A stretch of 64,000 nucleotides of DNA from Spirochaeta thermophila DSM 6578 (GTDB taxonomy: Bacteria > Spirochaetota > Spirochaetia > Winmispirales > Winmispiraceae), in assembly GCF_000184345.1 (NCBI RefSeq), contig NC_017583.1, forward strand, positions 1,860,001 through 1,924,000. The letters are read 5' to 3'. Below the pieces are notes generated by a model. It did no database searches. It saw only the letters and a program-made list of their open reading frames with translations, and was not told the DNA's origin. Positions 4,386 through 48,490 of the stretch are shown here, one piece after another. A program made the translations under genes and the position numbers. The first letter of the stretch is position 1; each line of letters starts with the position of its first letter.

Positions 4386-6278
4386 ATGAAATTGCGAACC
4401 CGTCTGTTCCTCGTGGTGCTCGCCACGGGATTCCTCCTCCTCCTGGGGATGGGATCCCTCCTGGTGCAGAATCACCTCTCGACACAGCTCGAGGATGTGC
4501 AGCTCAAGACACATCACCTTCTCCTCGCCGCAGGTGACTTCATCTCGGCCTCGAAGGACCTCATCGCCTACGACACCGCCCGCAGATCCACGGAATACCT
4601 CGAGGACATCCTCGCCCGGTGGAAGGAGTCGATCGCCACGGTGGAAGAGAGGATAGAGGGCCTCTCCACCCATCGCGGGGTCCGGTATCTTCCGCCATCC
4701 CTGAGAGAGGACATCCTCGCGATCCCCGACCTCTGGCGGCTCAACAAGCGCTTCTTCTACCAGACCGAGCAGCAGGTGAACGCGCTCCTCACCGATGTCC
4801 AGATCCCGCAACGATTCCGCCGGGGCCTCCTCCAGATACAGGTGGACCTGCTCACGAATCAGGGCGAGTCAGGCATGGCGGGATACTACATCACCCAGGC
4901 CATGGGATACCTCTATACCACCATCAATGTGGCCGAGGAGTTCTTCTCCTCACAACTCATGCAGCTTTCCTCGGAAGTACAGACGCACGTCAGACGAACG
5001 AAACAGCTGATCCAGACAGGAGTGATCTCTCTTCTCGTTCTCTCGATTCTTCTCTCCGCCCTCCTCGTCATACGGATCACCCGGAGCCTCTCTCGGCGGA
5101 TCCGGGTGATCAACACCCTCATCGGCGAGATCAAGACACAGAGGATCACACCCTCCATCATCAGGGAACTCGACACCCTGGGAGGCCGGAGAGATGAACT
5201 CGGTGAGATTGCGCTCCACACCTCCCAGGTGATGGACGTGCTGCGGTCCTTCCTCCTCTCGGTCCAGCAGGCGGCAGTGGAGGTGGAGACGCTCAAGAAC
5301 GCCCTCGCAGCAGGGCTTTCGGAATCGGCGGCGTCCGTGGAGGAGATCACCAGGAACATAGGATCATTCCGAGAAATGGTGGAGCATCTCGAACAGGCGA
5401 TCGATGTGACCGGAGGGGCCATCTCTTCCATCGCAGGGAGGATAGAGGAGATCCACCGGGACATACAGCGGCAGGCCTCACACATCGCAGAGAGTTCGTC
5501 GGCCATAGAGGAGATGAATGCCGCCATCCAGCAGGCCTCCGGCCTCGCCCGGGAGAGAAGGGAAGGGCTCCAGCATCTCATGGAGCTCATCAGGGAGAAC
5601 GGGGAGAAGATCGCCGGCACCCAGGAGGTCATCTCCACCGTCTCGCGGGAGATCACCAACATCCAGGAAATCATCGAGATCATCGATTCCATCGCGGAAC
5701 AGACCAACATCCTCTCGATGAACGCAGCGATCGAGAGCGCACATGCGGGGGAAGCCGGCAAGGGATTCGCGGTCGTCGCCGAAGAGATACGGAAGCTGGC
5801 GGAATCCACCGAGCAGCACGCAGGAGGTATCACTCGAGCGCTCAAAGGCATGACGGCACAGGTCACGAAGGCCCTCCGGACGAGCAACGAGAGCGCAGAG
5901 TCCTTCGAGCACATCAGGGAGGAGATGAAGAAATTCACCTACAGCCTCGAGGAGATCGCTTCCATCATGACGCAACTCTCCACGGCGAGCACCCAGATCC
6001 TCGAACACATCCATACCATCACCCGGATCACGGGAAAGATCAAAGGGGAATCGGACGAAATCGCGGGAAGGATCTCCGAGATCCACCAGGCAGCGGAGAG
6101 CACGCAAAGCACGTCGCTGATGGTGAAACAGAGCATAGAAGAGATCGAACGAGGGATCGGGGAGATCAGCAAGGCCATGCACGAGGTGGACAGCCTCGCC
6201 CAGGAAACGAAGCTGCGGATGGACGAACTCAAGGGGAGAGTCCACGAGTTCGAACTGGAAGAGGCGGGGAAGCCGTAG
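4386..6278 (+). CDS. Methyl-accepting chemotaxis protein
   Basis: This is a transmembrane chemoreceptor feeding a CheA/CheW array. The start is the ATG after CGGAGGACAC, not the upstream codon of the longer frame. A first membrane segment (about residues 9-28) is followed by a ~180-residue periplasmic helical sensor, a second membrane segment at ~208-232, a HAMP-like linker and a long coiled coil. The conserved signalling tip reads [20 protein letters not shown] and continues with [18 protein letters not shown] (about 433-475). The flanking heptad-rich helices hold Glu/Gln pairs suitable for methylation. The ligand is not predictable; the amylase neighbour only hints at a sugar-related role. 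Confidence 0.95.
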
Positions 6279-39382: not shown

Positions 39383-40372
39383 ATGTATGAACGAGACGTC
39401 ACTCCCAAACCGGTACCGTTCTATCTGAAACCCAGGATACTGCTCCTGGTGGTACTGGTGGTAGTGGGACTCATCCTTTTCTTCACGAGCTTCTTCGTGG
39501 TCGATCAGACCGAGGAGGCCGTGGTACTCCGATTCGGGAGGTACCACCGCACAGTGGGGCCGGGTCTGCACTGGAAACTACCGCTCGGCATAGACCGCAA
39601 CTACAACGTCCCCACCCAGGTCATCCAGAACATGAGTTTCGGCTTCAGGACCGAACGACCCGGCGTGGTCACGGTGTACTCCAGCCGCGACTACCCCGGC
39701 GAATCCATCATGCTCACCGGCGACCTCAACATAGTGGACGTGGAGTGGATCATCCAGTACCGGATCGTCGATCCGAAGGCCTGGCTCTTCAACGTGGAGG
39801 ACAGGACCAAGACCATCCGTGACATATCCCAGTCGGTCATCAACATGCTCGTGGGAGACAGGGCCATCCTCAACGTCATCAGCGTCGACCGGACCATGAT
39901 CGAGAGCGAGGGACAGGAGCTCATGAACCAGCTCTTCAAGCAATACGACCTCGGGATCACCGTGACTGCGGTGAAGCTGCAGAACGTGGTGCCCCCCAAG
40001 GGCGAGGTGCAGGACGCCTTCGAGGACGTGAACAAGGCCATCCAGGACATGAACCGGCTCATCAACGAAGGTAAGGAAGCCTACAACAAGGAGATCCCGA
40101 GGGTGAAGGGCGAGGCGCAGCGGATCATCCAGGAGGCCGAGGGATACAGGGCCGAACGGATCAACCGGGCGGAAGGCGAGGCGAAGCGATTCCTCTCGGT
40201 CCTCGAAGAGTACCGCAAGGCCCCTGAGATCACGCGCACCAGGCTCTACTACGAGATGCTCGAAAAGGTGCTCCAGAACGCCGAGAGCCTCGACCTGGTG
40301 GACAAGACCCTGGAGAACTTCCTCCCACTCAAAGCACTGGGTGGCACCGGTACCACAGGAGGCGCACGATGA
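39383..40372 (+). CDS. hflK: HflK, FtsH-associated SPFH protein
   Basis: A membrane-anchored SPFH/band-7 protein. One N-terminal helix (about residues 19-40) is followed by VDQTEEAVVLRFGRYHRTVGPGLHWKLP split over the SPFH start, then VEWIIQYRI, the RIIQEAEGYRAERINRAEGEA helix and ALGGTGTTGGAR at the end. With HflC it forms a ring around FtsH and tempers membrane-protein turnover. The stop overlaps hflC by four bases. GGGGAGG precedes the ATG. Confidence 0.94.
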   Translation: MYERDVTPKPVPFYLKPRILLLVVLVVVGLILFFTSFFVVDQTEEAVVLRFGRYHRTVGPGLHWKLPLGIDRNYNVPTQVIQNMSFGFRTERPGVVTVYSSRDYPGESIMLTGDLNIVDVEWIIQYRIVDPKAWLFNVEDRTKTIRDISQSVINMLVGDRAILNVISVDRTMIESEGQELMNQLFKQYDLGITVTAVKLQNVVPPKGEVQDAFEDVNKAIQDMNRLINEGKEAYNKEIPRVKGEAQRIIQEAEGYRAERINRAEGEAKRFLSVLEEYRKAPEITRTRLYYEMLEKVLQNAESLDLVDKTLENFLPLKALGGTGTTGGAR

Positions 40373-41358
40373 AAAAGCTCGTAAACACCCTGATCGTCAT
40401 CGCAGTGGTCCTCTTCATCTTCCTCCTCTTCGGGCCGTTCTATGTGCTCTACGAGGGAGAACAGGCTGTGGTCATCCGCTTTGGAAAGATCGTCCGGGTG
40501 GATCAGGAGGCAGGCCTCAAGACCAAGGTCCCGATGGTGGACAATGTGGTGAAATTCTCGAAGAAGATCCTCTCCTGGGATGGAGAACCGCAACGCATCC
40601 CCACTCTCGAACAGCAGTTCATCTGGGTGGACACCACCGCCCGCTGGCGTATCACCGATCCGGCGAAGTTCTACTCCACCCTCACCACCATGGAGCGCGC
40701 CTACTCACGCCTCGACGACATCATCGACAGTGCGGTGCGAACGGTCATCTCCGCCAACCCCCTCCGCGAGGCAGTCCGCAACTCCAACATCATCAACGAA
40801 AGAATGGCCGAAGAGGTGATACCTCTCGAAATAGGCGAGGAACCTGCGCTCACAGAGGAGCTGAAACAATACACCCAGGTATCCACCCAGCAGGAGCTCA
40901 TCAAGAAGGGCCGGAAGGTGCTCTCCGACGAGATGCTCACATTGGTGAAAGAGGTGGTTCCCAACTTCGGCATCGAGGTGATCGACGTGATCATCCGCCA
41001 GATACGCTACTCCGACGACCTCACAGAGAGCGTGTACCAACGCATGATCAAAGAGAGAAACCAGATCGCCCAAGCCTACCGGTCGTTCGGAGAAGGAAAG
41101 AAGCAGGAATGGCTGGGTAAGCTCGAACGTGACAAGAAGACGATCCTCTCCGAGGCCGAGAAGAAGGCGAACGAGGTGAAGGGACAGGCCGACGCCGAAG
41201 CCACGAGGATATACGCCGAGGCCTTCAGCAGAGATCCCGACTTCTTCAGGTTCTGGCGCGCGGTCCAGTCCTATGAGCTCACGCTCCCGGAACTCAAGAA
41301 GATCCTCTCCACCGATATGGACTACTTCGACTTCCTTTACAACCCCAACGCGAGGTGA
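40369..41358 (+). CDS. hflC: HflC, FtsH-associated SPFH protein
   Basis: The second SPFH subunit, 329 residues. A membrane helix at about 6-27 precedes VLYEGEQAVVIRFGKIVRVD, WVDTTARWRITDPAKFY and, near the C-terminus, EAEKKANEVKGQADAEATRI plus AFSRDPDFFRFWRAVQSYE. The ending is the usual HflC helix. It starts inside the hflK stop (ATGA) and is followed by a terminator. Confidence 0.95.
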   Translation: MKKLVNTLIVIAVVLFIFLLFGPFYVLYEGEQAVVIRFGKIVRVDQEAGLKTKVPMVDNVVKFSKKILSWDGEPQRIPTLEQQFIWVDTTARWRITDPAKFYSTLTTMERAYSRLDDIIDSAVRTVISANPLREAVRNSNIINERMAEEVIPLEIGEEPALTEELKQYTQVSTQQELIKKGRKVLSDEMLTLVKEVVPNFGIEVIDVIIRQIRYSDDLTESVYQRMIKERNQIAQAYRSFGEGKKQEWLGKLERDKKTILSEAEKKANEVKGQADAEATRIYAEAFSRDPDFFRFWRAVQSYELTLPELKKILSTDMDYFDFLYNPNAR

Positions 41359-41456: not shown

Positions 41457-41478
41457 TTCCTTGAAGAGAGACGCCGGG

Positions 41479-44415
41479 ATGTCCGAACACCTCGATCCTT
41501 CAATCTACGATCTCGAAGCTGAAGAGCTGGATTCGTACCGAAGGGAGGAGGTTTTCCCCTCTCCTCCAGAAGGGGAGAGGAAGTACTGGCGTCTCATCAG
41601 GGAGGCAGGGACCTCTCCGTCCCAGAGCATCCCCTTCCTTTCGGCCGTGCAGCTCGATCAGATCCGCAGACCTGCCGATCGGGTGGGACTCGAGCGATTG
41701 TTCCTCGCCTATCTCACCCATGGCGGGCCCACCTGGCTCAACCCGTACCCTCTCCTCCAGCGCCTCGAACGCTCCCTTGAGAAATACCTCGGCCCGAAGA
41801 AGGCCCTCGCACCGCTCGTGGACCTGCTCGCCCGTCTTGCGGAGAAGGGGATCTCTCCCCATGGATTCCTCCTCTACGTGGTGCTCCCCAGGATGGAAGG
41901 CGACTTCAACTGGCGGGAGTGGGAAGACCATCACTTCCCCGCCTTCCGCACCATCGGGGACCTCCTCGTCTCACTCAGACAGGAGGCGCCCTTCGACAAG
42001 CCGGTACTGGGCGACGAACACCTCCACCTGGCCCGCGACGTGGTACTCATCAAATACCTCGCCCGGCCCCTCGCCCGCCTCCCACGTGCGGAACTGCAAC
42101 GAGACGATCTCATCCTGGAATACCAGAGCGTATGGCGGTCGCTCCACCTGGCCAGCACCACCTTCATCCACTTCCTCAGGACCCACATCCTCGGCCCCCT
42201 CTACACCCTTTCGGGGAAGCTCTCACTGGATCAGATCATCGAGCTCCTCGCCCCCCTCCCCGAACTCGAACCGCTCCTCGCCTCTCTCCCACCGGAGAAA
42301 GGCCTCAGCGTGCACCTCTACCACGCCCTCCCTGAGAGAGAGATCCTCAAGCGGACGACGAAAGACTATCTCCCCTCTCACGTGATCAGAGAACTCTCCG
42401 CCTATACCAGGCTCGTCGCACGTCTCCTCCCTCGGCCCCTGGGGATCCCCGTGCTCAGGCTCATAGCCTATCTCCTCCGCATGCGGATGGAACCCGACCT
42501 CGGCCGCACCATCCTCTCCCTCGTGGAGTCCCTGCCGCCGAAGGGAGGGCTCGTGCTCTACAAGTGGCACCTGAAGAGGCTTTTCTCGATCCCCGTCAAT
42601 CGACGGGAAGCCTTCATCGCTGAAACAGCCGGCCACCAGGGGGTACACCCGGCCTATCCCTTCACCGAGGATCTCTTCCCCGATCCGGAAGAAACACACC
42701 AGCGTCACGCCTTTGCGGAGTACGCGAAGCTCCTCTCCGTGGAGCCCGATCGCATTAAGGGGGCCTCCGACATCGTACACCTCTACCTCCGCCGGCACCC
42801 CGAGCTCGAGCCCGTCTTCTCTCTCATCCGGGAGGACATCCTCGAAGGCCGCGACCGCAGATGGGACCCCGAGCGCATCTCCCTCTACGACAAGGCCACC
42901 GGTCCCATCCACGCCCCCTTCCTCCGCACCATCATCCCCGGCATGGGCTCCCTCTTCTACACCGCTCCCAAGTCCCCCTCCTTCCAGGATCTCGCCTCCC
43001 GCTATCCGGTCTCGCCCACCCTCCCCCCACTCTCCCACACCTTCCCGCTCACCCTCACCACCTCCACCCCCCAGCTCTGGGAAGAGGCGTCCGTGAAGGA
43101 ACGCATTGCCCTCCAACCACTCCTCGCCGTGAGTGCCGTCTTCCGCACCCCCCTCGCCTCCCCCCCTGAACAGGAAGTCTTCCGGGCCATCAGCAGAAAA
43201 CTCCTCTCGCTCAGGGAACCGCTGGAGCGCACCTATCAGGAACTCGCCGCCGCCCCCTCCCCGAGTCCCGAAGCCGCACACCTCCGCCAGCGCTACGAGC
43301 ACCTCCTCGCCCGCCAGCGCGCCCTCCGTACCGCACTCGGCCTCTATCAGGAGGCATCTCCCCACCTGCGATTCCTCATCGCCCTCATGGTAGGGGCACA
43401 CTTCGGCAAATCCGACCCCGAACTCTCCCGACTCGCCCTCTCGTGGACCCTCGCCCGTTACCGGCACGACCCCCTCCTCGCCAAGCAGATCGCCTATCTC
43501 TCCGAGGACCTCGCCGAGGACGACCTCTCCCTCGCGCAGCTCTCCCAGATCACCCTGAGTCTCGAACACCTCTTCAGGCTCGTGGCGGACGATCCCCACA
43601 TCCGGGACGCCCTCGACCACACCTCCACCGAACAGCAGGACGTCCTCGCTCCCTTCCTTCTCACCAGACGGAAGACGCTCACCCTCGACGCCGTGGACGC
43701 CGCCCTCAAACGCCTCTGCCGCTACCACCAGATGCTCGCCGAGCAGGCCAAGTGGCAGGAACTCCTCTCCCGCACCTACCGGCAGGAGGAGCCCCCCCAC
43801 ACCTTCAAGCTCTACCTCTCGAAGACCCCCCTCGACGCCTACTACGGCGACATGGGCGGGATCTGTCTCTCCGAACACCCCGAAGCCATCACGAACCCCG
43901 ACCTCTACGTGGCGAGACTCGCCGACCTCACCTCGGGCACCATCCAAGGGGTGGCCGTGCTCTACCGCAACACCGTCCCCTCTCAGAGCATGGGCGGCAG
44001 GCCCTACTGGTTCGCCTTTGCCATCAACCCCCTCCCCTCCCTCTGCCGCAAACTCTCCAACGCCCAGCTCCTCCAGATGTACCTCAACTACCGCATCCTC
44101 TTCGAGGAGCTCTCGCGCCGCACGGGCATGCCCGTACTCCTTCCCGGCATCTCGAGCTGGGGCATCATCTCCAACAACGACCACCTGCGCCGCATCATCC
44201 TACGGTATGAGCTCATGAGGAAACCGCCCGTCCTCAAGGACGCCACAGGCTTCTCCTTCTACTACCACGAGTACCAGTACGCCCATGCCGCATGCATCAT
44301 CGACCCCGCCCGACCCGACTCCTTCACCGCCCGGCGGGACCTCGAAGCCCTCACCGCCCACCTCGCGTCTGACAGCGCCACAGCACCCGCACCATCAGCT
44401 CCCGTCTCGGCCTGA
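41479..44415 (+). CDS. Large cytoplasmic protein of unknown function
   Basis: A 978-residue protein without signal peptide or clear membrane segments. The start is the ATG after GAGAGACGCCGGG; a TTG six codons earlier is the alternative. Composition is Leu/Arg/Pro-rich with many short helices, so the first ~700 residues resemble a helical-repeat scaffold. The C-terminal ~250 residues (KLYLSKTPLDAYYGDMGGIC, a WFAFAINPLPSL segment and SWGIISNNDHLRR) look more like a globular enzyme or binding domain. I recognise no family. It ends 21 bp inside the convergent EAL gene. Confidence 0.85.
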   Translation: MSEHLDPSIYDLEAEELDSYRREEVFPSPPEGERKYWRLIREAGTSPSQSIPFLSAVQLDQIRRPADRVGLERLFLAYLTHGGPTWLNPYPLLQRLERSLEKYLGPKKALAPLVDLLARLAEKGISPHGFLLYVVLPRMEGDFNWREWEDHHFPAFRTIGDLLVSLRQEAPFDKPVLGDEHLHLARDVVLIKYLARPLARLPRAELQRDDLILEYQSVWRSLHLASTTFIHFLRTHILGPLYTLSGKLSLDQIIELLAPLPELEPLLASLPPEKGLSVHLYHALPEREILKRTTKDYLPSHVIRELSAYTRLVARLLPRPLGIPVLRLIAYLLRMRMEPDLGRTILSLVESLPPKGGLVLYKWHLKRLFSIPVNRREAFIAETAGHQGVHPAYPFTEDLFPDPEETHQRHAFAEYAKLLSVEPDRIKGASDIVHLYLRRHPELEPVFSLIREDILEGRDRRWDPERISLYDKATGPIHAPFLRTIIPGMGSLFYTAPKSPSFQDLASRYPVSPTLPPLSHTFPLTLTTSTPQLWEEASVKERIALQPLLAVSAVFRTPLASPPEQEVFRAISRKLLSLREPLERTYQELAAAPSPSPEAAHLRQRYEHLLARQRALRTALGLYQEASPHLRFLIALMVGAHFGKSDPELSRLALSWTLARYRHDPLLAKQIAYLSEDLAEDDLSLAQLSQITLSLEHLFRLVADDPHIRDALDHTSTEQQDVLAPFLLTRRKTLTLDAVDAALKRLCRYHQMLAEQAKWQELLSRTYRQEEPPHTFKLYLSKTPLDAYYGDMGGICLSEHPEAITNPDLYVARLADLTSGTIQGVAVLYRNTVPSQSMGGRPYWFAFAINPLPSLCRKLSNAQLLQMYLNYRILFEELSRRTGMPVLLPGISSWGIISNNDHLRRIILRYELMRKPPVLKDATGFSFYYHEYQYAHAACIIDPARPDSFTARRDLEALTAHLASDSATAPAPSAPVSA

Positions 44416-46293
44416 GCCCCGCTCCTGCACCACGAGGAGGAACTGCTCCTCGGGCATGGGCCTCGCGTAGTAGAACCCCTGGAACACCTCACACCCCTGT
44501 GCGGAGAGGAACGCCACCTGCTCCCGCCGCTCCACCCCCTCCGCGATCACCACGATTCCCAGATCTCCGGCGAGACGCATCACCGACTGCACGATGGCCA
44601 CATCCTCACGCCGTTCAGGCACCCCTTCCACGAACGAATGGTCCAGCTTGATGGCCCTCACCCAGCAGCGCTTGAGGTAGTTGAAACTCGAATACCCGGT
44701 ACCGAAATCGTCCACACAGAGGCTGATCCCCATACCGCGGAGGGATTCGAAGACCCCCTCCTCCTCGGCGAGCGAGAGGAAACTCCGCTCGGTGAGCTCG
44801 AACATGAGCACATCACGGGGGATATCACACGCGATCATCCTATCTGCACAAAACGAGATGAATTCACCCTCCCTGAGCAGAGGCGGGGCCACGTTCAACG
44901 AGAGGAAGGGGAGGAGGATCCCCTGCTCCCTCATCCTGGCCCACAGGCCGCACACCTCGGCCACCACCCACTTCCCCAGGGGGAGGATGAGACTCTTGTC
45001 CTCCAGGAGCGAGAGGAACTCCCCCGGGGAGAGGATCCCCTCGTCCGGATGGTTCCAACGAAGGAGGGCCTCCGCCCCCACCACCGTCCCCTCCTTGTCC
45101 ACGAACGGCTGGTAGAACAAGACGAGCTCGTTCCGCTCGAGGGCCCTGTGCAGCTCATGACGGCGCATCACGAGCGACCGGAAGCGCTGCTCCCATCCCT
45201 CCTCGTGGAGGGAATACGCCCGCCCCTCCTTGAGTGCGTGCTCGAGGGCCAACTCGGCCACCTCCACCACCCGTGCCGGATACCGGGAGTCCGACGGATA
45301 GACCGCAGCGCCCGCCACCCATGAGACATCGAACCGCCGCCCCTCCACCACGTAGGGCCTGTTGCACGAGGAGAGGATACGCCTGAGGAGTCCCACCACC
45401 TTACCACGCTCCCCCATCCCCCCTGCCACGAGAAGGAACCGATCCTCACCCGTTGTCCACGCCTCGTCCGAAGGCCGCATGAGGCTACGAATCCGCTCCA
45501 TCGCGCGGGCGATGATCTGCTGCTGCACCCCCCTCCCATAGACCCGCCCCACCTCCCAGAGCGAGGAAGAGGCGAGGTGGATCACCGCACACACAGCCCC
45601 CTCCCCGCGCGAGGCAAGGTATTCCTGGAAGCGCACCACGGGCGGCAGTATCCGTTCTTCCTCCTCCCTCCTCTCCTCCCTCTCCACCACGACCACCACA
45701 CACTCCCCGGCCACACATCGCCGCGTACACAACACCCGCCGGTTCCTCCCCCCCACCTCCAACACCGCCTCCTCCTCCCTTCCCTCCAGCATCCCTTTCA
45801 GCTTCTCCACCGATGCTCCCCCGAGGAGCATGGACACGCTCTCGATCGGATACCCCTTCCCCGGCTCGATCCGGAGCATCCACTCCTCACACAGACGCGC
45901 GTTCACCCACACCCTTCCCCCCACCGACACCATGACCGGGTGCGCCGCCCCCTCCATGAGTCCCTCCACCACCCGCAGGAGGAGAGCCCGATCCCTTCTC
46001 AGGCGGATGGCGTACTCCACGAGCGCCGATCCCTCCACACCCCCTATGAGCCACACCCACCCGCCCGGGAGATAGCCCCCGTATCCCCTCCAATCGGCCC
46101 AGAGGAAGAACCCGACCCACACCACCCCCCACACCAACCCCGCGCCGCGAAGCCCGGCCGCGAGCACCCCCCCGAGCGAGAGGAACATGAGAGGGAAGAC
46201 CCACACCCCCAGGAAGGGGAGGGCATACCGGGCCGTCACCCCCACGAGGACGAGCCCCACCACCGCGAACACCCCACGAAGACGAGGAGACAT
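44395..46293 (-). CDS. Membrane-bound EAL-domain (c-di-GMP phosphodiesterase-type) protein
   Basis: A 632-residue signalling protein. Four or so N-terminal helices (residues ~8-90) are followed by a PAS-like segment (~105-210), a degenerate GGDEF domain (TTGEDRFLLVAGG in place of GGDEF) and an EAL domain from ~375. The EAL motifs GAEALLRWNHP, LSLNVAPPLL, FELTERSFL, DDFGTGYSS and KLDHSFV are intact, so c-di-GMP hydrolysis is likely. The GGDEF part is probably regulatory. Confidence 0.92.
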   Translation of the reverse strand: MSPRLRGVFAVVGLVLVGVTARYALPFLGVWVFPLMFLSLGGVLAAGLRGAGLVWGVVWVGFFLWADWRGYGGYLPGGWVWLIGGVEGSALVEYAIRLRRDRALLLRVVEGLMEGAAHPVMVSVGGRVWVNARLCEEWMLRIEPGKGYPIESVSMLLGGASVEKLKGMLEGREEEAVLEVGGRNRRVLCTRRCVAGECVVVVVEREERREEEERILPPVVRFQEYLASRGEGAVCAVIHLASSSLWEVGRVYGRGVQQQIIARAMERIRSLMRPSDEAWTTGEDRFLLVAGGMGERGKVVGLLRRILSSCNRPYVVEGRRFDVSWVAGAAVYPSDSRYPARVVEVAELALEHALKEGRAYSLHEEGWEQRFRSLVMRRHELHRALERNELVLFYQPFVDKEGTVVGAEALLRWNHPDEGILSPGEFLSLLEDKSLILPLGKWVVAEVCGLWARMREQGILLPFLSLNVAPPLLREGEFISFCADRMIACDIPRDVLMFELTERSFLSLAEEEGVFESLRGMGISLCVDDFGTGYSSFNYLKRCWVRAIKLDHSFVEGVPERREDVAIVQSVMRLAGDLGIVVIAEGVERREQVAFLSAQGCEVFQGFYYARPMPEEQFLLVVQERGSGRDGS

Positions 46294-46300
46294 ACGACAC

Positions 46301-48421
46301 TCAGTCCGTGCGTGCGGTCGAAAGCCCCACGTTGCCCAACCGCTCGGCGAGCCGGAGGATGTTCGACACCTCGACCCTCTGGTCCTTGAGAGAGAGCGAC
46401 TCCTCCGCCGTCTGGGTCATCTGCTCCACCGTGGCCGCGATGGTCTGGAAGAGCTCCTCCTGCTGCTTCGTGGAGAACCCCACCTGAGAGAGCAGGCCCA
46501 TACTCTGCTGCACGGTCTGTATGAGATCGCTCAAGGAGAAGAGAAGACGTTCCATCGCGGGGACGACCTCTCCAAGCCGAGAGGCCTCGCGGTTCGAGGC
46601 CTCCTCGAGGAAGGCGATGTCCCCCACCAGTTCCTGGGCCTTCCGGCCGATCCCCTCGGCCGAGGCCATGGTCTCGTCGGCGAGCTTCCTGATCTCGTGG
46701 GCGATCACCCCGAACCCCTTGCCCGCCACCCCCACGTGGGCCGCCTCTATGGAGGCATTGAGTGCGAGCAGGCGCGTCCTGTCGGCCACCTCTGCGATGA
46801 GCGACACCATCTCGGGGATGGTCGCCGACCGCTCCCTGAGGAGCCTCGCCCGCCTACCCACCTCCTCCACGTCCTCCTGGGCCGAGAACACGTGCGTGGA
46901 CGACTCCTCCATGGTGTTGTAGTTCTCCCTCAGGACCTCCTCCATCTTCCTCACCCCGGAGAGGAGCTCCCCGTGCACCTGCTGGAGCTCCCGGGCCGTG
47001 GCGAGCAGGACATCGGCGTTCACACACCCGAGGGCCTTCCTGAACCCGTCGATCACCGAGTAGAGGGCGAGGATGAGCTCCTGCTGGACCAGCCGCTGTT
47101 CCGACACCCTCCGCCGCTGGGCTTCCTCCTCCTTGAGGAGGTAGAGCACGCAGTGCTCCTTCCTAGTGAGCCCGGCGGCGAGGGCGCGGGCCATCCCCTC
47201 GCAGGAGAGATACCCGCACGCCCCGCAGTTCCGCTCGTCGGCAGGAGTGGTCTTCCCGAGCTCCCGGAAGATGCGCGCCTTCACCTCATCGGTGAGCACG
47301 GGCAGGTCAACCATCTGCGACCTGTCCTCATAGGAACGCCTGTAGAGGTGGGGCCTCCAGTACCGGGAGAGAAGCCTGGAGAGAGCCCGCCTTCCGCCTC
47401 CCGGCAGGAGTCCACGCTTCCGGTAGGAGGCCATCATGCGATCGGCCCTGCGGCGCACCGCCTCCTCCAGCACGTCCCGCGGCCCTGTCTGGAAGCGCGT
47501 GCCCGGCCCCCCGTTGCAGCCGAGCTCGCAGTTGAGACAGTCGAGAAGGAGCGGGGCGCTCCCCCGCTCGAGAGCCTGCGGGATCTCCTTGAAGTAGGGG
47601 TAGAGGACCTGAGGCCCCTCGATCTTTCGCGTACGGGAGACCACCTCCGGCATCTCCCGGGCGAGGGTGGCGAGGAGTCCTCCCGGATTCGAGAACCAGA
47701 CGGCCCGCTCAGCCGGATCATTGTCGAACTCCTCCTCGGCATAAGTGGAGAGATCGACCCCTTCCCGCTCGAAGTAGTCCACCAGTCTCCGCATGGTCAC
47801 GTTGTAGGTCCCCACCCCCACGGTGAGAAACTCCCGCTTCTTCGCCACGCACGGGGAGACCACGAGGAACTCGTGATCTCTGTACTCCGGATAGAAGGCC
47901 TTCACCATCTTCATCACGTGCACCATGGGACTGTCCACCGGTGCGAGGTACGGGAGGAGCTCGGGCTGGTAGAGCTCGAGGTAGCTCACCACCGCAGGGC
48001 AGGGCTGGGCGATGAGGAACCCGGGACGTTCTGTCTTGAGGTAGTGGACATACGAGGCGATGGTGAGCTCCGCCCCAAAACTCACATCGAAGACCGCCCT
48101 GGCCCCCATGGCCTTGAGCCACCCGTTGAGCCTGAGGTGGTGCTCCCCGAAATGAGCCGCCGCAGCAGGCGCCACGAAGGCCACCACCTTCTTACCTCCC
48201 CTGAGGGCCTCCAGGGCCTCCTCAAGGTCGTCCACCACCCTGCGCGCACCGTGCGTGCAGGCCTTGAGGCACTCGCCGCACCCGATGCACAGCTCGGGCC
48301 GCACCTCCACTACCTCTCCGGAGCCGTCGTTCGCATACTTCACCGGACAGACCGCGATGCACCGGTGACAGCTCACACAACGCGCGGGATCCACGTCGAT
48401 GAGCGGCTGACTGTAGACCAT
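46301..48421 (-). CDS. Sensory [FeFe]-hydrogenase-like protein fused to a chemoreceptor signalling domain
   Basis: A soluble 706-residue fusion. Eight Cys (15-55) bind two [4Fe-4S] clusters. A hydrogenase large-subunit domain follows, with the H-cluster cubane cysteines Cys141 (QPCP), Cys191 (SPCVAKK), Cys298 and Cys302 ([11 protein letters not shown]). The proton-channel cysteine before Cys141 is replaced by Pro, as in sensory (HydS-like) forms. Cys399/402/407/424 make another Fe-S motif. The rest is a coiled coil with the receptor tip [20 protein letters not shown]. No membrane segment. The ATG follows GGAGGGGGGA. Inference: H2 or redox chemoreceptor. Confidence 0.9.
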
Positions 48422-48490
48422 TCCCCCCTCCTTCGAAGATCTCTTCACCCATCATGACAGGGAATCCACGCCTCCCGATTCAGCCTTTCC

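Follow-up and report, generated by a model that had tools for sequence, protein, structure and literature searches.

Within the 64,000-nt stretch of Spirochaeta thermophila DSM 6578 DNA that we analysed (the window), a single gene joins an [FeFe]-hydrogenase head to the signalling hairpin of a methyl-accepting chemotaxis protein (MCP); a GGDEF-EAL gene comes next after it (Table 1). The frame is open over 46301..48448 on the minus strand, where an upstream GTG start would give a protein of 715 aa. We prefer the ATG at 48421, also the start chosen in the first-pass annotation, because a strong Shine–Dalgarno sequence (AAGGAGG, 48427-48433) lies directly upstream, five bases 5′ of it. Residue numbers in the text follow the 715-aa form; subtracting 9 gives those of the 706-aa protein. 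The orthologue from another genome of the genus is 97% identical, and dN/dS between the two Winmispira genomes is 0.13 for the head, 0.22 for the MCP part and, from few sites, 0.16 for the hairpin tip. Both halves of the gene are thus held by selection. A chance frame and a pseudogene were both rejected on the identity and these ratios; the frame is undamaged.

Table 1. Features of the fusion gene and its downstream neighbour, in window coordinates
Feature	Position	Strand	Size	Basis or remark
[FeFe]-hydrogenase/MCP fusion gene	46301..48421	-	706 aa	open frame, Shine–Dalgarno sequence, purifying selection
Two ferredoxin-type [4Fe-4S] motifs	48245..48394	-		Pfam Fer4; all cysteines kept in 28 homologues
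[FeFe]-hydrogenase H domain, L1 = QPCP	47504..48193	-		Fe_hyd_lg_C 1.6e-29; ligand cysteines invariant
C-terminal [4Fe-4S] motif Cx2Cx4Cx16C (PF04060)	47147..47233	-		Pfam; motif in PMC8163306
Helical linker, Fe-S domain to hairpin	46907..47140	-		predicted helices 434-474 and 478-541
MCP signalling hairpin	46412..46906	-		MCPsignal 1e-23; match to MCP chain 3g67
Hairpin tip	46679-46768	-	30 residues	within the MCP signalling hairpin
GGDEF-EAL gene	44395..46293	-		7 bases after the fusion stop codon; Pfam EAL 1.5e-61

Pfam placed four domains in the fusion protein in the order ferredoxin Fe-S (Fer4_10, residues 19-64, E 1.6e-8; the two motifs span 19-68), Fe_hyd_lg_C (86-315, 104 bits, cut-off 22), PF04060 (FeS, 406-434, 2.1e-6) and MCPsignal (515-679, 84.5 bits against 34.6), each over its curated cut-off. 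The hydropathy scan found no transmembrane segment (maximum 1.41), so that the soluble hairpin joined to a HydS-like head in one chain, as proposed in the first-pass annotation, is borne out. Sequence matches to known structures followed the same division, with the head matching [FeFe]-hydrogenases and the tail chemoreceptors. The best chemoreceptor match in the PDB was 3g67, which we take to be Tm14 of T. maritima; soluble cytoplasmic receptors of this type likewise carry an MCP hairpin without a membrane part, but the solved chain has neither Fe-S nor hydrogenase head. An AlphaFold2 model built on only 7 sequences reached a mean pLDDT of 65.5, with a good head; among its best 50 Foldseek rows only [FeFe]-hydrogenases appeared. 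The linker helix was of low confidence from residue 455 on and the hairpin stayed below 70, and we therefore left linker geometry out of the evidence.

The H-cluster ligands of the head are C150 (QPCP), C200 (SPCVAK), and C307 and C311 (CELGC), all four invariant in an alignment of 27 rows. The proton-relay cysteine (C299, the leading C in the common TSCCP motif) is replaced by P149, equally invariant in the 27 rows. Alignment by hand to the group A paralogues of the host genome further assigned the two proton-path glutamates of MEExxE to Y133 and Y136, and S319 to A169. Where CpI has M353 and M497, the head has S198 (invariant in 27 rows) and L305. Three additional Fe-S motifs are present: CxxCxxCx3C at 24 and at 54, and an exact Cx2Cx4Cx16C at 408-433, made up of C408, C411, C416 and C433. 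The first-pass claims of four H-cluster cysteines, three extra Fe-S motifs and a missing proton-channel cysteine were therefore all sustained. We also observed an extra cysteine, C304 (DCLNC; window 47507-47542), three residues before an H-cluster ligand; it is invariant in 27 MCP-fused heads, whereas neither the group A paralogues nor the other sensory hydrogenase of the host genome has it.

The Cx2Cx4Cx16C motif is common to sensory groups C and D, in which the entire group A proton path is lost (PMC8163306), and Pro at C299 occurs in ∼10% of sensory sequences (PMC10055695). By its ligands, proton-path loss, C-terminal motif and changes at M353 and M497, the head is a group C/D-type sensory [FeFe]-hydrogenase domain. 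T. maritima HydS (group C, TmHydS) and T. mathranii HydS (group D, TamHydS) share with it two [4Fe-4S] clusters, an H domain without proton relay and the Cx2Cx4Cx16C motif, and both bind the H-cluster with low activity (PMC8163306, PMC10055695). They differ in lacking the Pro at the relay position and the extra invariant cysteine in L3 (DCLNC), and neither carries an MCP hairpin: TmHydS ends in a PAS domain and TamHydS has none, whereas in the fusion protein Pfam found MCPsignal and no PAS domain after the Fe-S domain. The changes in the head thus match those of sensory enzymes in which a working H-cluster has been demonstrated, proton-path residues being absent in M2e/M2f as well (PMC8163306). 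Since two group C/D enzymes bind the H-cluster and turn over H2, the fusion head is expected to do likewise. In TamHydS the C-terminal cluster remains oxidised under H2 (PMC13104023), which casts doubt on electrons simply being relayed on to the hairpin.

At the hairpin tip, N..E..GKGF...E.R is retained. The acidic residue of the turn is V in the fusion protein and A in the sister strain, whereas E or D stands there in 16 of the other 17 MCP tips that the genome encodes; the usual TN is TR. A homologue from the same family (L028) has E at the acidic position, and TK. The tip also has a His, at what is presumably the position of Tsr R388; we count it as unremarkable, since it is shared by the majority of the genome's other MCPs. 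A consensus methylation site, searched for with a strict 10-residue pattern, is absent from the fusion protein; the pattern is present in 13/17 other MCPs of the genome and in 10 of 28 fusion homologues. Past the tip, the C-terminal arm measures 141 aa, compared with 119-163 in other fusions and 160-193 in most full-length (membrane) MCPs of the host. With an arm shorter than theirs, the fusion receptor may belong to an array separate from that of the membrane MCPs. With the acidic residue lost and the methylation consensus absent, neither CheA control nor adaptation should be taken for granted.

The protein encoded by the adjacent GGDEF-EAL gene has a hydrophobic N-terminus, a degenerate GGDEF motif (TGEDRF) and intact EAL motifs. 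Such a gene comes next after the fusion in all three genomes of the family, with a spacing of at most 7 bases, and the two are probably co-transcribed. Blastp detected no relatives of the window's EAL protein in the other neighbourhoods examined. Two genomes of a single sister family have the gene order fusion, CheB, CheR and response regulator-SpoIIE, with spacings from a 4-base overlap to a 16-base gap. In these operons (L066:1322-7303 and L068:5340-11327) the hydrogenase-MCP comes with dedicated adaptation enzymes and an output of the PP2C type. Elsewhere in the window, on the strand opposite to the fusion gene, a 984-aa protein (41461-44415) without a Pfam match below E 0.05 adjoins two Band_7 proteins (39383-41358).

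The host genome (2.56 Mb, one contig) supplies candidate partners. It holds five [FeFe]-hydrogenase genes, matches over cut-off to HydF and HydG, five CheW-domain matches with CheA-length frames among them, three CheR matches and 19 MCP-domain genes, the fusion gene included. An ordinary MCP (5592-6026, in a frame of 656 aa) lies in the same window. A second sensory hydrogenase (L063:7024-8748) shows ∼30% identity over the head and has the Fe-S domain and no MCP. It is part of a cluster (L063:3986-9063) of 2Fe-2S ferredoxin, HydS, SpoIIE phosphatase and [FeFe]-hydrogenase, which in our view resembles the hfs cluster of Thermoanaerobacterium. In a group A-like paralogue (L001, 741937-742806 of the same genome), TSCSPGW replaces TSCCPxW, with Ser at the position expected to be a Cys ligand of the H-cluster [4Fe-4S].

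A chain spanning head and hairpin was found in at least ∼70 of the 393 spirochaete genomes searched, a lower bound counted from the matches listed, of which three short ones were confirmed. The architecture is also carried by Lachnospiraceae (L084, L095), and one spirochaete genome has two hydrogenase-MCP fusions in tandem (L175:3455-7597). A small-genome spirochaete family, probably Borrelia, served as a control but was uninformative, having no hydrogenase and a full CheW set. Scanning genome contigs for fusion relatives with a single sequence gave no match; a profile scan was dominated by ordinary MCP tips, with few true head relatives (L083-L086, L095, L098). The same head is fused to histidine kinases in L173, L177, L178, L180 and L083, and to GGDEF-EAL in one chain in L182 (2907-5549, plus strand). 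In the head tree, which contains no named C1, C2 or C3 references, the histidine-kinase heads of L180 and L181 were placed inside the MCP-headed group, the sister-operon heads clustered with the query head (SH-aLRT 96) and L028 formed a long, unstable branch. A head that stays constant while its output varies between MCP, histidine kinase and GGDEF-EAL is what is expected of a sensor module, and these swaps lend comparative support to group C heads as sensors.

Proteins of this kind are already named. Group C2 of the HydDB [FeFe] classification, 'Chemotactic (putative)', pairs an H domain of the sensory type with an MCP and is proposed to sense H2, as a putative role with no mechanism given (PMC5037454). 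The fusion protein has both elements in one chain, as judged from the architecture of its Pfam domains, and the gene is thus a further case of this putative class, the kind being known as a proposal only. The rarity implied in the first-pass annotation consequently does not hold: the architecture is common in spirochaetes and class C2 already covers it. In the passages of the source that were consulted, the C2 description mentions no GGDEF-EAL neighbour, sister CheB-CheR operon or GGDEF-EAL output of the head, and the [FeFe] table lists no GGDEF-EAL-linked class, diguanylate cyclase-linked enzymes appearing only as [NiFe] 2c (PMC5037454). To that extent, the c-di-GMP link and the CheB/CheR operons go beyond C2 as described; the altered tip and missing methylation consensus of this member are a further addition. 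A literature search, with subscription journals mostly outside its scope, returned no precedent for the c-di-GMP link, and no characterised MCP-linked [FeFe]-hydrogenase or experiment on any fusion member was found in the literature searched. H2 sensor/transducer proteins of termite-gut treponemes were reportedly discussed by Ballor et al. in 2012, who put forward H-domain proteins of these gut acetogens or fermenters as sensors that may act in chemotaxis.

Taken together, the protein is most likely a cytoplasmic receptor for H2 or redox state that feeds a Che pathway, and we consider it on balance probable that its head responds to H2 itself. By analogy with the characterised sensory enzymes, we infer that H2 would be the ligand. 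Coupling to a Che pathway is likely, given the CheB/CheR operons of the sister lineage and CheA/CheW in the genome. The head would take its H-cluster from HydEFG and turn over H2 slowly; H2 binding or reduction would change the state of the H-cluster and the N-terminal clusters, and in response the C-terminal Fe-S domain could shift relative to the helix entering the MCP hairpin. The hairpin, dimeric and part of a receptor array, would then alter CheA activity and thereby swimming. In family members, the signal could also be linked to c-di-GMP turnover via the adjacent GGDEF-EAL gene.

The two ferredoxin-type clusters and the lost proton path could also favour electron exchange over turnover, and in the related group D enzyme the N-terminal clusters are indicated as the main electron route (PMC13104023). 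The protein would then be a redox sensor, in electron exchange with the ferredoxin pool through its N-terminal clusters, with the H domain mainly setting potential or structure; it would report over-reduction, with H2 merely a proxy. We regard this reading as unlikely, as it leaves four H-cluster ligands invariant in 27 rows unexplained without H2 chemistry, and related sensory enzymes turn over H2 even though they lack the proton relay (PMC10055695, PMC8163306). Decay of the receptor, with head or tip non-functional in the host species, would account for the losses at the tip and methylation sites; it is highly improbable in view of the undamaged frame, the intact cluster ligands and the low dN/dS between the Winmispira genomes, tip included.

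A different question is where the signal goes. The GGDEF-EAL gene adjoining the fusion throughout the family, the L182 chain, the RR-SpoIIE gene after CheB-CheR in the sister operons and the divergent tip would all suit a Che-like pathway that acts on c-di-GMP or a PP2C phosphatase and not on the flagellar switch, altering attachment or gene expression. Ordinary chemotaxis would account just as well for the CheB/CheR partners and the many MCPs, however, and the EAL protein had no blastp relatives in the other neighbourhoods examined, which leaves us to judge a purely non-flagellar output quite unlikely. Somewhat less doubtful, though still rather unlikely, is a single H2-sensing unit with two outputs, acting on swimming via CheA and on c-di-GMP via the adjacent GGDEF-EAL protein. 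If true, this would parallel, among [FeFe] enzymes, the putative [NiFe] group 2c linked to diguanylate cyclases, and the L182 fusion would be its one-chain form.

Returning to the receptor with an H2-responsive head, it is plausible that an H2-producing fermenter would use it to leave sites at which H2 or reduced ferredoxin accumulates. The thermophilic version is compact and soluble, and another genome of the genus carries an orthologue; it is therefore a good first candidate for biochemistry. If the proposed function is true, the fusion would let bacteria connect H2 to behaviour through one protein, which would bear on how fermenters and syntrophs position themselves in H2 gradients.
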